Source: Candidatus Methylomicrobium oryzae
GTDB lineage: Bacteria > Pseudomonadota > Gammaproteobacteria > Methylococcales > Methylomonadaceae
Length of the DNA: 64,000 nucleotides
NCBI RefSeq assembly: GCF_016745425.1
Contig: NZ_JAERVK010000012.1
Location: 62,001 to 126,000 of the forward strand
Reading direction: 5' to 3'
The notes beneath the pieces were generated by a model, which ran no database searches, was not told the DNA's origin, and was given only the letters and a program-made list of their open reading frames with translations. Shown here one piece after another: positions 12,752-22,451 of the stretch (position 1 is the stretch's first letter; each line of letters opens with the position of its first letter). Position numbers and translations under genes: made by a program.

Positions 12752-14899
12752 TTAGTTGAACACTGCGGCAACACCTTGATTCCGGGTCATCGGCACACTA
12801 CAGGTGGCCGAAGTGGAGCCATTGCATACACTGCCCGACCAGTTTTTGAACGTATGCCTTCTGGCCGGCTTGGCGGTCAGAGTCACGGCTGTGCCTGCTT
12901 TGAAAGACGTGCTGCAGGTACCGCTGCTGCAACTGATGCCTTTGGGGCTGCTGGCCACGCTGCCCGCACCGCTGATAGTTACCGACAGGGTATAGGCGCT
13001 TGGCGCAGGTGCAAACGTTGCGGTAACGTTTTTGACGCTATCCATCGTCATAATGCAAGTGCCTGTTCCCGAGCAGGCGCCGCTCCACCCGCTGAAAACA
13101 TAGCCTGCCGCCGGGGTTGCGGTCAGCGTTACCTGGGTATTGTAATTCAGGTTTGCCATGCAGGTCGCCAAGCCGAGCGCACAGCTTGCCGTGCCGCCGA
13201 TACTGCCGCCATTGGCTGTTTTATTGATAGTCAGCGCCAACTGTTGCAAACTGAAGTTGGCACTGACATTTTTAATGCCATCCATCGTGGTCTCACATAA
13301 GCCTGTACCTGTGCAGTCGCCGCTCCAGCCATTGAACACACTGCCCGCATCCGCGGTGGCCGTCAATACTACCGGCGTTCCGACAGCCAGTTCCACCGAG
13401 CAGGTTGGCCCGCAGGCGATGCCGTTGCCTGCCACGGTACCGGAGCCATTCCCCTGTTTGGCAACCGACAGTGTATAGCTTTGCGGCAGAGGATTGTTGG
13501 GATCGACCACATTCAGTACAAAGGCCTTGTTGACCATCGCATTGGCCGCATCGGTAACGGCTACGGTAAAGGCAAAACTGCCCGCCGCCGTCGGCGTCCC
13601 GGCCAATACCCCGGTGGGCTTGCCGTTGGTATCCTGTTCAAAATCCATGCCCGCTGGCAATGCCCCAGCATTCACATTGATGGTGTACGGCGAATTACCA
13701 CCCACAACTACAGTCCGCTGTGGGTAAGGTTGATGGATTTCGCCATCCTGAAGGTTATCGATGACTCCCAGGCCCGCTTCGGCATCGAAACCGGCCATTT
13801 GCGCGCCGATATAATCGCCGACTACGATTTCTTGCGAGCAGTCGACTTGGACAGTAGTTACCTCGCCGGGGCGCGCCGGATCCGGGCGGGTCACCCCGAC
13901 GGTGCCCTCACCGTGAAGGCCGTCGGCGCCGACCTTGTCGCACATGGCTTCCCCGGTTTCGACATCGATGCTGGCGGCGCTGCCGGCATATTTAAAAAAT
14001 TCATAACGCCGGGTAATCTTTTCGTCGCCGGCCGGGAGGTCTTCCGCGGCGGCAACCAATTGCCCGTTCGCGCCGCCGGGATTATTGGGGTCGTTCAGTT
14101 TGGCGAATTCGGTCTGCATCATCCGCCATTCGACTTCCATCTCTGCTACGACATCAATGCCATCGCCTGCTTTATCGTTCAGCCAGTTCTTTTCATCGGG
14201 ACTGTTCGGATCATCGGAAACCAAGTCCTTCAGTTCGACGGCTTGGTTGTTTTTCGAAGACGTTTTGATTTCTTTGGCAAAAACCGCCTCGCCGAACTTC
14301 GCCAGAACAGCCGGCGCGACTTCCGGGGCGGGCGGTGGGGGGGCCTGAATCGCGGCAACGACCTGCGCAGGCTGGGCATTGACCGGCGGATTGTAGACCC
14401 AGCTTGGCGTGGCCACATTGACCGCAGGGCCATGAACCAATGATCCCGGGTTTGTCGGGTCCTCGATCAGCCAGTTATAGCGTACCGTAGTCGGTATGCC
14501 GTAATAGCCCACTCCAAAATGCTCGCAGCCTTCGTTTACGGCAAGATTGGTACACATATGGCCGTCGGTTGGCGCCAAAGGCGCGGCGGGAACGGCGGTA
14601 TAGGCAAGAAAGGCGCCGTTCGCGTCCTTTTTGCTCTCGTAACGCACAAACACCCGCGGATTGCCGTTGGCGTCGACATCCTCGCGAATCACCGGCGCGC
14701 CGTAATGATTCCAATCAAAGGTATAGGTGATATCCCTACTATGGACACCGTCCAGCTCAATTTCAAAACCGTGGCAAGGCTGGTTGGTATCGTTGACCAC
14801 ATCGAAATTATTCAGGTCGCCATAAGCCGTGGAAGCCATGACGGAATGGCCGGCCATAGCCATAGTTGCCATCGCCAATGACAAAAATTGTCTCTTCAT
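12752..14899 (-). CDS. Secreted protein with putative Ig domain and three InlB-type repeats
   Basis: 715 residues with a Sec signal (FLSLAMATMAMAGHSVMA). Residues about 22-200 are a unique domain rich in Asp/Asn with several Cys; a Pro/Ala-rich linker (APPPPAPEVAPAVL) follows. Residues about 395-475 form a putative Ig domain of He_PIG type (SPYTINVNAGALPAGMDF, GVLAGTPTAAGSFAFTVAVTDAAN). Then come three divergent InlB B-repeat-like units of about 75-80 residues, each with YTLSV or ALTIN, a Cys pair, a T-x-T-A block and GWSGDCTG, GWSGACSG or NWSGSVCN. Paired cysteines suggest disulfides. Likely an extracellular or surface adhesive protein; no sorting signal or beta-barrel is seen. It stands alone. 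Confidence 0.8.
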   Translation of the reverse strand: MKRQFLSLAMATMAMAGHSVMASTAYGDLNNFDVVNDTNQPCHGFEIELDGVHSRDITYTFDWNHYGAPVIREDVDANGNPRVFVRYESKKDANGAFLAYTAVPAAPLAPTDGHMCTNLAVNEGCEHFGVGYYGIPTTVRYNWLIEDPTNPGSLVHGPAVNVATPSWVYNPPVNAQPAQVVAAIQAPPPPAPEVAPAVLAKFGEAVFAKEIKTSSKNNQAVELKDLVSDDPNSPDEKNWLNDKAGDGIDVVAEMEVEWRMMQTEFAKLNDPNNPGGANGQLVAAAEDLPAGDEKITRRYEFFKYAGSAASIDVETGEAMCDKVGADGLHGEGTVGVTRPDPARPGEVTTVQVDCSQEIVVGDYIGAQMAGFDAEAGLGVIDNLQDGEIHQPYPQRTVVVGGNSPYTINVNAGALPAGMDFEQDTNGKPTGVLAGTPTAAGSFAFTVAVTDAANAMVNKAFVLNVVDPNNPLPQSYTLSVAKQGNGSGTVAGNGIACGPTCSVELAVGTPVVLTATADAGSVFNGWSGDCTGTGLCETTMDGIKNVSANFSLQQLALTINKTANGGSIGGTASCALGLATCMANLNYNTQVTLTATPAAGYVFSGWSGACSGTGTCIMTMDSVKNVTATFAPAPSAYTLSVTISGAGSVASSPKGISCSSGTCSTSFKAGTAVTLTAKPARRHTFKNWSGSVCNGSTSATCSVPMTRNQGVAAVFN

Positions 14900-15863: not shown

Positions 15864-15931
15864 GTAGGATGGGCTGACGAAGGAAGCCCATCGTTCGCGT
15901 TTGATGGGCTTCGTACCTCAGCACATCCTAC
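15864..15931. repeat. REP element overlapping the fhcC stop codon
   Basis: GTAGGATG ... CATCCTAC outer arms with an inner GATGGGCT / AAGCCCATC pairing. The element truncates the IS110 remnant on its left, and its right end contains the TAG stop codon of fhcC (15928-15930). Confidence 0.8.
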
Positions 15932-16740
15932 AATTTGACTAACACTTCGCCGCGTCCCGCCTCCGCCATATCCCCCGCATAACGCCGCACGCGGTTAAAC
16001 CCAACCGCCGCATCCGCAAAGCGCGAGTTCAGGCTCTTGAACGAAGCGAACAGCATCGGCAAGAATCCCAACGTATGCGCGCCGCAGTCGTTGAAGCTGG
16101 CCGAAAGCTGCGGTTGACTCCACAGCAGCAGGGTGCCCCGGCGCATCGCGTAGCCGAGGTAGCGGCCGGTCTGGCCCATCACCGCGATGGTGCCGGCGGT
16201 CATCCGCGAGCCGCAGTAGTCGCCCGCGTTGCCTTCGATCAGGATCGTGCCGCGGCGCATGTGGTCGCCGGCGCGTTCCCCGACGTTGCCTTTGACCAGG
16301 ATCAGGCCGCCTTTCATGCCCATCTTGTTGCCGGGCAGCGCGCCGCCGAGGAAGTCGCCGGCGTCGCCGTCGATCTGGAGTGTGCCTTTTTTCATTTCGC
16401 AGGCCGCATAGAGGCCGGCATTGCCGGTGACGCGGATACTGCCCGACTTCATACCCATGCCCAGATAGGCACCGGCGTCGCCTTCGACCCGAATGCTGCC
16501 GCCGTTCAGTTTCTTACCGATGAAGTCGAGTTTGCCGAAACTGTTCTTGATTACGATGTTCTGAGCATCGCCGAAGGAAATATTAAACAATGCATCGACA
16601 CGCAGTTTCGCCTTGCCGGATTGCAGTTCGAGTGCGGCGATTTCGGCGATTTCCTTGCCTTCGAGGTTCTGGCAGACCAACGGCGACAGGTCGACGCGCT
16701 GGTCGGGCCGGTATTTCAGCGTAAAGGTGAGTGCGCTCAT
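15928..16740 (-). CDS. fhcC: Formyltransferase/hydrolase complex subunit C
   Basis: 270 residues, homologous to archaeal formylmethanofuran dehydrogenase subunit C. It forms a beta-helix of GXGXG repeats: GGSIRVEGDAG, SGSIRVTGNAG, KGTLQIDGDAG, GGLILVKGNVG, RGTILIEGNAG and AGTIAVMGQTG. In methylotrophs the FhcABCD complex transfers the formyl group from formyl-H4MPT to methanofuran and hydrolyses it to formate; subunit C is structural. It is the last gene of the operon; its ATG overlaps the fhcD stop by four bases. The stop codon lies inside a REP palindrome. Confidence 0.96.
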   Translation of the reverse strand: MSALTFTLKYRPDQRVDLSPLVCQNLEGKEIAEIAALELQSGKAKLRVDALFNISFGDAQNIVIKNSFGKLDFIGKKLNGGSIRVEGDAGAYLGMGMKSGSIRVTGNAGLYAACEMKKGTLQIDGDAGDFLGGALPGNKMGMKGGLILVKGNVGERAGDHMRRGTILIEGNAGDYCGSRMTAGTIAVMGQTGRYLGYAMRRGTLLLWSQPQLSASFNDCGAHTLGFLPMLFASFKSLNSRFADAAVGFNRVRRYAGDMAEAGRGEVLVKL

Positions 16741-17633
16741 GCCATGATCTCCTGCAGATGAAAGTGGAACGGTCCGAGTTTCCCGCCGTAGTTGCCGGCG
16801 CTGATCCGCTTGATGCCGTTTGCGGCGCCGAGGTCGCAGACAGCCTGCATGCCGACGCGCATCGCCTTGTCGATGTCTTCCTTGGTCAGGCCGTCGATCA
16901 CGATTTCCATCACCGATTCGACTTCCGAAGACAGTTCGGTCTGGGTCATGCCTTTCAGGGTCGGGCAGAACGCGTCGTTGGTGGAAGCGCCGAGCGCCTT
17001 GTATTTGGAACCGACTTTCGAGCCGGAGCGCACGACGCCGCCGGGGAACGGCATGATCACGTTAGGGACTTTGCGCATCACATCGATCGCGGCTTCGCAA
17101 GCGGCTAACGCCTGCGGCTGCGATTCGGCCAGCACCAGGAAGTTGCCGCCGCCGACCGCATCGACCTGGCCGGTCGTTGCTTCGGCAAGGAATTCGCCGT
17201 CCATCACCGGAACCCGCCAATAGCGTTTGCCGCCGATCACTTTCGAGACCTGGAAGCCGTCGCCGAAATAGCGCAGGTTCTTGCCGAGCGGAATCGGCTT
17301 GCCGCCGTCGATGCCGGCGAACAGCGCCGAAGTCGGCGAAGTCAGCACGCACTGGCCGGCGCGGGTTTCGAGCTGTTTCGCCAGGCCCTTGCCGCCCATC
17401 GCGAAGATCATGATCGAGACGCCGGGACGACCGTCCGGAGTTTCGGACGGATCGAGTACCCGCTCGATGCCGGCCTCGCAGCCGCAGGCGATCACCGAGG
17501 TCGCGAAACCGGTCATCGCCTGCGCGGAGATCATCGCCCATTTTTCGTTCTGCGCGGTGATGATCGCGCGCGTCGCCTTCATCGGAAACGCTTCCGCGAA
17601 GGTTGCGTCTATCGTTACGCCGTTAATTATCAT
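16737..17633 (-). CDS. fhcD: Formylmethanofuran:H4MPT formyltransferase subunit D
   Basis: 298 residues, homologous to Ftr. Starts MIINGVTIDATFAEAFPMKATR, the family N-terminus, and carries MIFAMGGKGLAKQLETRAGQC, VMPFPGGVVRSGSKVGS and NDAFCPTLKG. It catalyses formyl exchange between tetrahydromethanopterin and methanofuran in the formaldehyde oxidation branch. Its 3' end overlaps fhcC by four bases. Upstream, where fhcA would normally adjoin, a DUF2442 gene ends only 25 bases before the start. Confidence 0.97.
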   Translation of the reverse strand: MIINGVTIDATFAEAFPMKATRAIITAQNEKWAMISAQAMTGFATSVIACGCEAGIERVLDPSETPDGRPGVSIMIFAMGGKGLAKQLETRAGQCVLTSPTSALFAGIDGGKPIPLGKNLRYFGDGFQVSKVIGGKRYWRVPVMDGEFLAEATTGQVDAVGGGNFLVLAESQPQALAACEAAIDVMRKVPNVIMPFPGGVVRSGSKVGSKYKALGASTNDAFCPTLKGMTQTELSSEVESVMEIVIDGLTKEDIDKAMRVGMQAVCDLGAANGIKRISAGNYGGKLGPFHFHLQEIMA

Positions 17634-17658
17634 GCTTGATACTCATTGTTCTTGTCAT

Positions 17659-17919
17659 TTATTGAATCCAGTCGACGCGCTTTCCAGTCGCTCTTTCGTA
17701 AAGCGTTTCAGGCGATACGTCAAAACCGCAATCCCAAACCACGGTCGCCCATTCATCCAATTTAAAGGCTTTGAAATTATTTATATCCCGTAACGGCAAG
17801 GCGGCAGTGTACTTAAAAACGAGATCCCGTAAGTCGACATCACCGGATTCGCCTGTGTCAAAAACCAGGTTCAACCGGTACGCATCCAGATATTTTGCTG
17901 ATTTTACGCTAACAATCAT
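17659..17919 (-). CDS. DUF2442 protein, putative antitoxin-like partner
   Basis: 86 residues matching DUF2442: MIVSVKSAKYLDAYRLNLVFDTGESGDVDLRDLV... with the C-terminal TVVWDCGFDVSPETLYERATG. The family is usually found as the second gene after a DUF4160 gene and has been suspected to form a toxin-antitoxin-like module; biochemical proof is lacking. Here it follows a frameshifted DUF4160 gene by four bases, and the pair lies inside the fhc operon between fhcA and fhcD, so it is probably transcribed with the C1 genes. Confidence 0.85.
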   Translation of the reverse strand: MIVSVKSAKYLDAYRLNLVFDTGESGDVDLRDLVFKYTAALPLRDINNFKAFKLDEWATVVWDCGFDVSPETLYERATGKRVDWIQ

Positions 17920-17923
17920 ATCG

Positions 17924-18171
17924 CTATACCAAGGGTTTAACTTTGTGAAAATCCTTTGTGTTCCACATTTCCAGTAGCTCCTGTTGGTGCAGCTCAGCCC
18001 ATTCCTCCACCAAACCGCGCACTTTGCCGGGAAGATGCCCCGTCAGGGTATTTAGCGATTCGATTGCCACCACAGCCTTGTATTCATGTATTTGACATGA
18101 AAATGCGGCGGGTTATGATCGTCAAAATACATGAAGATGACGATGCCTAAGAATCGGCTTATTTCAGGCAT
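17924..18171 (-). pseudogene. DUF4160 gene with a frameshift
   Basis: Begins MPEISRFLGIVIFMYFDDHN then PPHFHVKY, the DUF4160 N-terminus. At about 18090 the frame is lost and soon reaches a stop; in another frame the protein continues HEYKAVVAIESLNTLTG ... VRGLVEEWAELHQQELLEMW ... FHKVKPLV and stops at 17924. One lost base in the TACATGAATAC region explains it (a second pyrimidine-CATGAA would restore the frame). So either a real pseudogene or a sequencing error. The start is eight bases after the fhcA stop and the end four bases before DUF2442. Confidence 0.85.
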
Positions 18172-18179
18172 CTAAATCC

Positions 18180-19844
18180 CTAAGCAAGCCTTTTCAAGGG
18201 ATGTGCGGTAATACTCCCGCGTCCGTCTTCGGTGATTTCGTCGTCGCTGATTTTAAAGTTGCCGAGCTTCATGGTCAGGTAGCGGTCGAAGTAGTCCTTC
18301 AAACCTTTTTCGACCGACGGATCGAAATCGGGCTTCACGACATGGGTCGTACCCCACTTCGTTGCAATCACCTTGCCGTCCCGGACGACCAGGTCGCCAT
18401 CCTTGAACACGTAATCGGGCTTTTCGAACATCTTTTCCCGGTCCGCATTTTCGGTGTAGACCGTAATGTCGGCCCAGTTGCCGGGGCTGAGTCCGCCGCG
18501 GTCGTGCAGACCGATCAGCTTGGCCGCGCCGGCGCGGGTCATGATCGCGATTTCGTTCAGGGTGTATTCGCGGTCGATCGAACCCAGCGTGGTCATTTTT
18601 TGCGCTTCCGGATGGATCGTCGCCAGCATGTCGTTGCGGAACGATTTGTCCATCAAGAGGCGGATCAGGTGCGGGTAGCTGGTAAACGGGGCGCCGTTCG
18701 GATGGTCGGTGGTCAGGAAAATCCGCCACGGGTCGTCGACCAGCAGGAAGGTTTCGAGGCCGATCGCCCATTGCAGCGCGTTCACGAAATTCTGGTCGCG
18801 GTATTTGAACGGCACGACGCCGCAGCCGGCGTCGCACTCGATGTCCATCGTAACCCACTTGTTCGGGCTCGCATGCTTGTGGTTCGCGTGCTGGCGCATG
18901 TTGTCGCCGGAGGCGGTCACGGTCTGACCGAACAGGATCTGGCCGACGTCGATCGTGATGTTCTTGTGCTTGTTCACCGCTTCGGCGATCTGCGCCGCGC
19001 CGGATGAGAACTTGAAATCGCCTTCGGTGCCGTAGCTGTGGAACTGGATATGCGTCAAATGCAAGGGCAGGCCGCCGATGCCTTCGATCGTGTTCAGCGT
19101 GGTTTCCATGTTGCCGGGCACGCCGAGGTTGCAGCCGTGTACGTGCAACGGATGCGAAACGCCGAGTTCCTTCACCGCGGTCGCCAGCGTCTGCAGGATC
19201 TGCCGCGGCGTGACGCCGTAATGGCTGTTCTGCTCGTCGAGATCGAGCTTGCGCTGGTTGAACTTGAACGCGTTGATACCGCCCGGATTAACCACCTTGA
19301 CGCCGATCGCTTTGGCCGCATTGATCGTCCAGGCGACGTAGTCGTTGACCGCCTTCTGGTCTTTTTTCGCGGTCAGCATGCGCAAGAGGTAATCGTCGCT
19401 GCCGAGCATCACATAGCCGCCCTTGTCCAGAATCGGAATATCGCCCATTTCCATATGCGCCTGGCGTGCATTGACCGGCAGTACCGCCGGCTCGAAGCCG
19501 GCCGTGTAGCCCATCTCCGCATAGCGGTAACCGGTCACGAACGTGCTCGGCATCGCATGGCCGCAGCCGGACCTTGTGCATTCGGTGCGCGCGACCGGGT
19601 CCTGCCGGTGGTCTTCGGGCAAGAGGGTCCGGGCGATGTTGCCCTTGCCGCCGCCGATGTGCGTGTGCATGTCGATCGCGCCCGACATCACCACTTTGCC
19701 TTTCAGGTCGTATTCCTTGTCGATCGGCACGTCCTTCGCGGGTTTCTTGACGATGCGCCCGTCCTGAATGTAAATGTCCTGTTTCTTGCCGTCGATGCCG
19801 GCGGCAGGATCGTAGACGGTCCCGCCCGTGAGTTTTATCATCAT
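18180..19844 (-). CDS. fhcA: Formyltransferase/hydrolase complex subunit A
   Basis: 554 residues, amidohydrolase-fold subunit homologous to FwdA/FmdA. The metal-binding IDMHTHIGGGKGNIAR (H60, H62) is near the N-terminus, followed by LLPEDH, HVHGCNLGVPGN, LTHIQFHSYG and LTTDHPNGAPFTSYP. In the bacterial complex this subunit hydrolyses formyl-methanofuran to formate. It starts ATGATG overlapping the fhcB stop. Length and motifs are normal. Confidence 0.97.
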   Translation of the reverse strand: MMIKLTGGTVYDPAAGIDGKKQDIYIQDGRIVKKPAKDVPIDKEYDLKGKVVMSGAIDMHTHIGGGKGNIARTLLPEDHRQDPVARTECTRSGCGHAMPSTFVTGYRYAEMGYTAGFEPAVLPVNARQAHMEMGDIPILDKGGYVMLGSDDYLLRMLTAKKDQKAVNDYVAWTINAAKAIGVKVVNPGGINAFKFNQRKLDLDEQNSHYGVTPRQILQTLATAVKELGVSHPLHVHGCNLGVPGNMETTLNTIEGIGGLPLHLTHIQFHSYGTEGDFKFSSGAAQIAEAVNKHKNITIDVGQILFGQTVTASGDNMRQHANHKHASPNKWVTMDIECDAGCGVVPFKYRDQNFVNALQWAIGLETFLLVDDPWRIFLTTDHPNGAPFTSYPHLIRLLMDKSFRNDMLATIHPEAQKMTTLGSIDREYTLNEIAIMTRAGAAKLIGLHDRGGLSPGNWADITVYTENADREKMFEKPDYVFKDGDLVVRDGKVIATKWGTTHVVKPDFDPSVEKGLKDYFDRYLTMKLGNFKISDDEITEDGRGSITAHPLKRLA

Positions 19845-21112
19845 ACAGTCATCTCGCGTAGAGCGTTTTCAATCGCATTGAGCGCGTCGGCCGTGCTCGG
19901 CAGGCCGGAATCGCGCAATTTTTTGAGCCGGATCGCGACCACGTTGTCCATCCGGTAGGCATGGCCGGCATGATCGATGCCGGGGGTGCCGACCGGAATG
20001 AACACATCGGGTTCTTTCGCAAAGGCCATCCCGGAACGGCCGATCACGATCGTCGGCATATGGTCGATCGGCGGCACCGCTTTCGCATTGAACGCATGCA
20101 CCCAGACCAAAGCGTCCGCTTCGCCGCTATCGATCAATGCATTCGCATCGTTCAGGTACGGGTCGTATTCGGGATAGCCGCGCGAGAACCGAGTCCGCGC
20201 CGGATAGCCGGTCGTCCAGCCGCAAACCTGGTTCGCGGTCTGGTCGCCTTCCCTGCCGCCGAGCGGCAGCCCGGAGCAGCGGGTAGTCGTATTGAGTTCC
20301 TTGATCATTTCGGACAGGGTCTGCACGGTCAGTTCGGCCTGGCGGAATCCCAATGCGCCGGCGGCCCAGGTCACCACGCTGTAGCGCGCCGCCTTCAACT
20401 GATCCGCGATCATCTGCAATTCCGCAACCGCAATTCCGCCGACCGAGTCGGCCTGCAGCGGACGGCCCTTGACCAGTGCCCGTAGGACTGCGATCACTTC
20501 CGGCAGTTCCGCATCGTTGCAAGTCAGAACTTTCGCGGCCCGGCCGTTCGGCGAAGTCGAGGCGGTGCCGGACGGTGCCTTGCCGAGATAGATCACCTGG
20601 CGGTTTGCGGTGTCATCGACGAACATCGCGTCCGGGTTCCAAATGTAACGTTCGAAGAAACGGGGCGCGAACGCTTCGAGGTCTGTGCCGACAACCAGCA
20701 ACAGGTCGCAGCGGTTTTTGACTTCGGCCAGCGTGGTATTCATCCAGCCCGAATCCTGCAAAGCCAATAAATTATTGCGTGCTGCCGAAAAATTCATGTT
20801 GTCGACCACCGCCCCTGACCGGTCGGCCAGCGCGAGCAGCGCGCGCATCCCGTTCACGTCGGTCGCACAGCCGCCGATCACAGGCAGCTTCGTGTCTTTG
20901 AGCAATACGGCCGCCTTTTTCGCGGCCACGTCCAGACTGACTTCCTTGCCGTCAACCCGTGGTCGAGTATCGGTGATCGCCTGCTCGAACGCGGGCGTGT
21001 TCACCGCACAACCGTTGGCCGTCACTTTCAGCGCCAGGCCGTCGACTTGAACGCTCAGGTCGTCGGTGCCGATGCCGCAAAAAGGACTCGGTACTTCAGT
21101 TATTTCAGTCAT
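19841..21112 (-). CDS. fhcB: Formyltransferase/hydrolase complex subunit B
   Basis: 423 residues from the ATG at 21112 (MTEITEVPSPFCGIGTDDLS), chosen over 21169 because AAGGA lies seven bases upstream. Homologous to FwdB/FmdB, but as in other methylotrophs it is the form thought to lack molybdenum or tungsten pterin chemistry; the N-terminal CGIGTDDL motif and GCATDVNGMRALLALADRSGA are visible. First gene of the fhc operon; overlaps fhcA by four bases. Confidence 0.95.
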   Translation of the reverse strand: MTEITEVPSPFCGIGTDDLSVQVDGLALKVTANGCAVNTPAFEQAITDTRPRVDGKEVSLDVAAKKAAVLLKDTKLPVIGGCATDVNGMRALLALADRSGAVVDNMNFSAARNNLLALQDSGWMNTTLAEVKNRCDLLLVVGTDLEAFAPRFFERYIWNPDAMFVDDTANRQVIYLGKAPSGTASTSPNGRAAKVLTCNDAELPEVIAVLRALVKGRPLQADSVGGIAVAELQMIADQLKAARYSVVTWAAGALGFRQAELTVQTLSEMIKELNTTTRCSGLPLGGREGDQTANQVCGWTTGYPARTRFSRGYPEYDPYLNDANALIDSGEADALVWVHAFNAKAVPPIDHMPTIVIGRSGMAFAKEPDVFIPVGTPGIDHAGHAYRMDNVVAIRLKKLRDSGLPSTADALNAIENALREMTV

Positions 21113-21352: not shown

Positions 21353-22451
21353 ATGCAAGAAATCAATCCGATCAAGTATAAAATCGCCGACCTCAAAGAG
21401 CGCACCGAGTCGCTTAGGGGGTATCTTTGACTTCGACACCAAGAGCGAGCGCCTCGTCGAAGTCTTAAGGGAGCTCGAAAACCCGAAAATCTGGGACAAC
21501 CCGGAACTGGCCCAGGCGATTGGCAAGGAGCGCGGCCAGCTCGAAATGGTCGTAAATACGATCAACAACCTGACCTCCGGCCTGAGCGATGCCGAAGAAC
21601 TGCTCGCAATGGCGGTCGAGGAAGGCGATGCGGATACGGTCGATACGGTCGCGAGCGACCTGGAGTATCTGGAAAGCCAGGTGGCGACACTCGAATTCCG
21701 GCGGATGTTCGCCGGCGAAATGGACCCGAATAACGCGTTTCTGGACATCCAGGCCGGCTCCGGCGGCACCGAGGCGCAGGACTGGGCCTCGATGATCGAA
21801 CGGATGTATCTGCGCTGGGGCGAGAGCAAGGGCTTCAAGACCGAACTGATCGAAGAATCGCCCGGGGATGTCGCCGGCATCAAGAGCGCGACGATCAAGT
21901 TCGAGGGTGACTATGCATTCGGCTGGCTGCGCACCGAGACCGGCGTACACCGGCTTGTAAGAAAGTCGCCGTTCGATTCCGGCAACCGCCGGCATACCTC
22001 GTTCGCGTCGGTGTTCGTGTCGCCGGAAGTCGACGACAACATCGCCATCGAAATCAATCCGGCCGACTTGCGTGTCGACGTGTACCGCGCTTCGGGCGCC
22101 GGCGGACAGCACATCAACCGAACCGAGTCGGCGGTGCGGATTACGCATAACCCGTCCGGGATTGTCGTGCAATGCCAGAGCGACCGTTCTCAGCATAAAA
22201 ACCGCGACACCGCGATGAAGCAGCTGAAAGCGAAACTGTACGAACTCGAAATGATGAAGCGCAGCGCAACCCAGCAGGCACTCGAAGACAGCAAGTCGGA
22301 TATCGGCTGGGGCAGCCAGATTCGCTCTTACGTGCTCGACCAGTCGCGGATCAAGGACCTTCGCACCGGCGTCGAAACCGGCAACCCGCAGGCAGTACTG
22401 GACGGCAATCTCGACATGTTCATCGAGGCGAGCCTGAAGAGCGGTTTGTAA
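21353..22451 (+). CDS. prfB: Peptide chain release factor 2 with programmed +1 frameshift
   Basis: Translation starts at ATG 21353 ([15 protein letters not shown]), reaches an in-frame TGA at 21428-21430 after 25 codons and resumes in the +1 frame from 21429. The shift site CTTAGGGGGTATCTTTGAC has the internal Shine-Dalgarno-like AGGGGG and the CTT-TGA-C slip sequence, the known RF2 autoregulation. The joined product is 365 residues, the E. coli length. It has the stop-codon-reading SPF motif (VRKSPFDS) and the catalytic GGQ ([14 protein letters not shown]). The next gene is lysS, 33 bases on, a classic pairing. Confidence 0.97.

Follow-up and report, generated by a model that had tools for sequence, protein, structure and literature searches.

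Introduction

Chromosomal toxin–antitoxin (TA) modules are often regarded as selfish passengers. The gene pair DUF4160–DUF2442 belongs to DhiTA, a type II TA family that has been validated elsewhere (PMC8198452; PMC12724237). In Dickeya dadantii, dhiTA is functional in vivo and has its toxin gene first, and promoters are repressed by DhiA-type antitoxins (PMC8198452). In Thermus, a plasmid tolerated loss of its DUF4160 gene but not of its DUF2442 gene, plasmid persistence was raised by the pair, and the data likewise assign the toxin to DUF4160 and the antitoxin to DUF2442 (PMC12724237). A second kind of described system is the core defence hotspot, such as cDHS1 and cDHS2 of Pseudomonas aeruginosa, with medians of 26 and 6 kb, respectively (PMC10250203).

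Here, we describe a DhiTA locus that splits the fhc operon within a 64-kb stretch of DNA (the window) taken from a 4.73-Mb draft genome in 64 contigs. As at cDHS1 and cDHS2 (PMC10250203), the core genes on either side of the fhcA–fhcD junction stay fixed while the defence or TA cargo varies; unlike those far larger regions, the fhc insert consists of one or a few genes that split the tightly coupled operon of a single enzyme complex. A literature search for TA modules inside conserved or essential operons, and for fhc together with TA, returned nothing relevant, and the hotspot was not found described. What is new is the place: the operon of a core enzyme is split by a hotspot for cassettes. 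The TA nature of the pair, suspected in a sequence-only reading of the window, is correct and was already known from the Dickeya and Thermus data. We consider it probable that small TA and defence cassettes land repeatedly at the fhcA|fhcD junction in Methylomonadaceae and in some other Methylococcales.

Results

The gene order on the minus strand of the window is fhcB–fhcA–[DUF4160]–[DUF2442]–fhcD–fhcC, with the following features.

About 19841–21112, minus strand: fhcB (formyltransferase/hydrolase complex, beta subunit), an open frame named from position and order; it aligns with the fhcB of relatives and has no Pfam match
18180–19844, minus strand: fhcA, amidohydrolase-family subunit (PF07969, E 4e-49), overlapping fhcB by 4 bases
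17924–18171, minus strand: DUF4160 gene (DhiT-type toxin), a frameshifted pseudogene (PF13711, 82.6 bits across the shift)
18085–18090 (near 18087–18088), minus strand: the DUF4160 frameshift, one base short of the intact orthologue in genome G028 in an alignment of four orthologous loci
17659–17919, minus strand: DUF2442 gene (DhiA-type antitoxin), intact, 86 aa (PF10387, E 6e-14)
17634–17658, minus strand: fhcD leader, a degenerate ATGAG-N9-ATGA box with spacing N8 in the window
16737–17633, minus strand: fhcD, formylmethanofuran:H4MPT formyltransferase (PF01913/PF02741)
15928–16740, minus strand: fhcC, GXGXG subunit (PF01493, E 6e-16), with a 4-base overlap with fhcD

These coordinates agree with the spacing described from the letters alone, namely gaps of 8, 4 and 25 bases around DUF4160 and DUF2442 between fhcA and fhcD, and 4-base overlaps at fhcB–fhcA and fhcD–fhcC. 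A search for terminator-like sites on the operon strand between 15900 and 21300 gave none, which makes co-transcription across fhcA–fhcD in the window plausible. Elsewhere in the window, the start of a prfB-like gene (21405–21435) contains AGGGGGTATCTTTGAC, which, by eye, takes the form known for the classical +1 frameshift site of RF2, and 12752–14899 (minus strand) encodes a 715-aa protein with InlB B-repeat-like (PF18998) and Ig-like (PF05345) domains.

The window pair fits the DhiTA arrangement, with the DUF4160 gene followed by the DUF2442 gene on one strand. It shares with DhiTA of Dickeya dadantii and the Thermus plasmid persistence module both Pfam domains, the toxin-first order and the tandem placement; it differs from them in the frameshift of its toxin gene and in its position between two core enzyme genes. 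Both genes are intact at the same place in G028, and from its sequence the window copy is classed as a degenerate DhiTA locus. In searches of PDB sequences, DUF2442 had NE0471 (2auw, E 0.017) as its sole match and DUF4160 had none; AlphaFold2, run on an intact DUF4160 with a two-row alignment, gave a mean pLDDT of 45. The window's own genome contains a second DUF4160–DUF2442 pair (L002 on contig C52, 1215–1716), with both frames open, co-oriented between an inorganic pyrophosphatase gene and a PHP-domain gene resembling dnaE, which is another core-gene junction.

The broken toxin and intact antitoxin noted in the sequence-only reading are confirmed by Pfam and by the alignment of orthologues. 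The first frame of the window's DUF4160 stops after 39 aa, the remainder is open in another frame (18073–17924), and PF13711 covers the whole length only when read across the frameshift. A programmed −1 frameshift was considered; by eye, there is no slippery heptamer at the lesion. The orthologous pair occupies the same place in G001 (same genus), G028 and G018, as seen in the alignment of the four loci, and DUF4160 is broken in three of the four genomes, being intact only in G028. G001 carries a 2-base insertion and a deletion of about 150 bases, and G018 a palindromic insertion of about 87 bases. In the alignment, at least two of the lesions in the three broken copies are independent; those of the window genome (G000) and G001 are not separable as independent, because the G001 deletion covers the place of the window lesion. 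DUF2442, by comparison, is intact in 4/4 genomes with dN/dS of 0.04–0.11, the value of 0.11 being that between two genomes which both lack the toxin, a pattern indicative of purifying selection. Together, these data fit the earlier suggestion that the antitoxin was kept after the toxin was lost, in what is a small sample of four genomes.

Alternatively, the frameshift could be an artefact of sequencing or assembly, in which case the window would hold an intact DhiTA module. The lesion is a single base in a 64-contig assembly, and the first 28 codons are still conserved with the intact orthologue (dN 0.03); against this, the orthologous DUF4160 genes of G001 and G018 are also broken, by other lesions. 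We regard such an error as unlikely, and real decay of DUF4160 as plausible because the orthologue in G001, of the same genus, is broken as well.

FhcD was located in 87 of the 101 genomes of the order, and the junction could be read in 68 loci in which fhcA and fhcD are adjacent. Inserts of more than 100 bp, and up to 5 kb, were present in 24 of these 68. Closed junctions were nearly all overlaps of 1–4 bases, mostly ATGA, and filled ones held 0.12–5 kb of cargo. The same two states were displayed by 80 further loci, many of them from named organisms and including Methylobacter, Methylomonas, Methyloprofundus, Crenothrix and Bathymodiolus symbionts; in 17 loci outside the order, no insert exceeded 184 bp. 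The closed ATGA overlap is the commonest state and, since distant families are mostly closed, we take it from these outgroups to be ancestral. The junction has the property expected of a hotspot: the flanking core genes stay the same, and the cargo at this one position varies across many genomes.

This survey also addresses whether the insertion is unique among Methylococcales, as the sequence-only reading had asked, or ancestral, as would follow if nearly all methanotrophs carried the pair between fhcA and fhcD. The junction proved variable; it is not the case that nearly all methanotrophs carry the pair, and many junctions are closed or hold other cargo. A special link of the pair to C1 flux, which had been inferred from its placement, is unsupported, because in other genomes a dozen unrelated cassettes occupy this junction; the site is therefore better described as a landing site than as a dedicated pathway regulator. 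The pair could nevertheless have been domesticated, such that the retained DUF2442 protein and the leader became a regulator or translational coupler of fhcD, tying the operon to stress or C1 flux. The low dN/dS and the four intact copies of DUF2442 are in keeping with this idea, as is the repression of promoters by DhiA-type antitoxins (PMC8198452). It is, however, distinctly improbable, given that this position is empty or holds unrelated cargo in other genomes and that the window DUF2442 protein matches the DUF2442 domain only, with no separate DNA-binding domain shown by Pfam.

Junctions of more than 200 bp were far rarer in control operons, many of them from the same genomes, with 1/751 in total (atp operon 1/280, S10-spc 0/420, pqqDE 0/20 and fhcD–fhcC 0/31, the last of these closed in 31/31 loci); the nuo operon was dropped as a control because it is patchy. 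Comparison of the 24/68 fhcA–fhcD junctions with the controls gives a Fisher p of 4e-27, a value that overstates precision, because some genomes are related and do not count as independent samples and because conservation is higher in the control operons. The thresholds differ slightly, at 100 bp for fhc and 200 bp for the controls, and one fhc insert is 124 bp long. The excess may also partly reflect tolerance, because the control operons are more essential or conserved than fhc. The fhcB–fhcA junction is usually tight, yet a few genomes have inserts there; by eye, one such gap (L056) contains Uma2-like and TA-like genes and another (L064) a Uma2-like gene and one other.

Cargo at fhcA–fhcD was identified by Pfam and PADLOC scans plus a library search. 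It comprises VapB–PIN (VapBC, with several PINs), Phd–ParE, RelB–YafQ, ParDE, HicAB, MNT–HepT, DUF1640, Uma2, Fic, a methyltransferase, DUF433–DUF5615 and four kinds of DUF4160/DUF2442. An AAA plus TOPRIM-like pair fills the gaps of loci L168, L182 and L202, the L202 pair matching the PADLOC candidate defence system PDC-M38. All 129 cargo matches have the orientation of the operon, and none is on the opposite strand. Many modules are intact, some cargo is truncated, and some loci keep only short DUF1640 remnants.

The precise location of these inserts, and the ATGA that in several loci bounds the DUF1640 insert on each side, could be taken to mean that a site-specific mobile element, integron-like or a transposon, targets the ATGA overlap. 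We consider this very improbable; insert ends differ between genomes, and there is no integrase, transposase or recombinase among the listed ORFs of the inserts or the Pfam matches of those scanned.

On a tree of fhcA plus fhcD from 113 loci, at least 28 changes between filled and empty and at least 17 changes in TA state are required, counts (28 and 17) that a second way of building the tree reproduced. An ATP synthase protein tree of 34 genomes, which is independent of fhc recombination, requires at least 10 filled/empty and at least 5 TA changes. When the DNA identity of shared cassettes was compared with that of fhcD, 39/133 pairs were more similar than fhcD, and most were about as diverged as the flanking genes, so that many cassettes have been long resident. 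By this test, recent transfer of cassettes is not general.

The state changes bear on the view that the window holds a neutral relic, a single ancient insertion in decay, and that the hotspot reflects mere tolerance of non-essential spacing. The broken toxin, the truncated cargo and the DUF1640 remnants are what such decay would leave behind. Conversely, the cassettes are unrelated, the trees require at least 10 to 28 changes of state, DUF2442 is under purifying selection and many modules are intact, all of which makes a neutral relic a poor explanation that we hold to be quite improbable. Recurrent landing of cassettes at the junction remains our preferred account, and several inserts carry possible traces of how it occurs.

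In G001 (L033), a 57-base copy of the fhcD start separates a Phd–ParE pair from a second DUF4160–DUF2442 pair. Over 56 bases, this copy is 96% identical to fhcD of the window genome vs. 93% to the fhcD of G001 itself, on the basis of 2–4 base differences; this suggests that the new cassette may have come with a new fhcD start. The insert of G008 (L051) includes a 71-residue fhcA end whose DNA is 93% identical to the host's own, and one Methylomonas insert includes 28 residues of the fhcA end. Homology-facilitated illegitimate recombination (PMC3240628), in which one join is homologous and the other illegitimate, would yield partial fhc copies of the kind seen in these few scars, which may be its products.

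A further shared feature is the sequence ATGAG-N9-ATGA, which precedes fhcD in 26/50 filled loci with unrelated cargo upstream and forms a five-codon frame (MSITI* and similar) with its stop overlapping the start of fhcD. The ends of the DUF1640 genes at this site take the same form (MSSGL*, VSAGI*), and the pattern occurs in only 3/57 closed loci, where it is the end of fhcA itself. The leader is probably a remnant or mimic of a DUF1640 end that keeps fhcD coupled; in the window, its spacing is N8 and the mini-frame is therefore uncoupled. When the window's own genome was searched for DUF1640 with PF07798, the control gave no match.

Discussion

We propose that donor fhc DNA would enter by homologous recombination within conserved fhcA or fhcD at one end and by an illegitimate join at the other. 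Partial copies of fhcD or fhcA would be left behind, and later exchanges would swap the cargo. Survivors would be same-strand inserts that leave fhcD translatable, often with a small MSITI*-like leader frame resembling the DUF1640 end. A TA pair could then stay as an addictive or defensive passenger, persisting because any deletion would have to spare both fhcA and fhcD. In the window, the toxin would have decayed while the antitoxin is still selected, perhaps against related toxins or within a read-through transcript.

The junction is easily scored, lies in an operon central to C1 metabolism, and has repeatedly taken up unrelated modules, all of them directed with the operon. It offers a natural experiment on the entry and persistence of TA and defence genes in core operons, and it could inform on the aftermath of toxin loss and on whether essential neighbours protect modules from deletion. 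It is also a practical spot to seek new defence genes in methanotrophs. More tentatively, it is nearly as likely as not that Methylomonadaceae keep a shared, locus-specific pool of TA and phage-defence cassettes in the essential fhc operon, and that recombination in fhcA and fhcD passes these cassettes from genus to genus. If so, defence genes would ride on, and gain protection from, central C1 metabolism.
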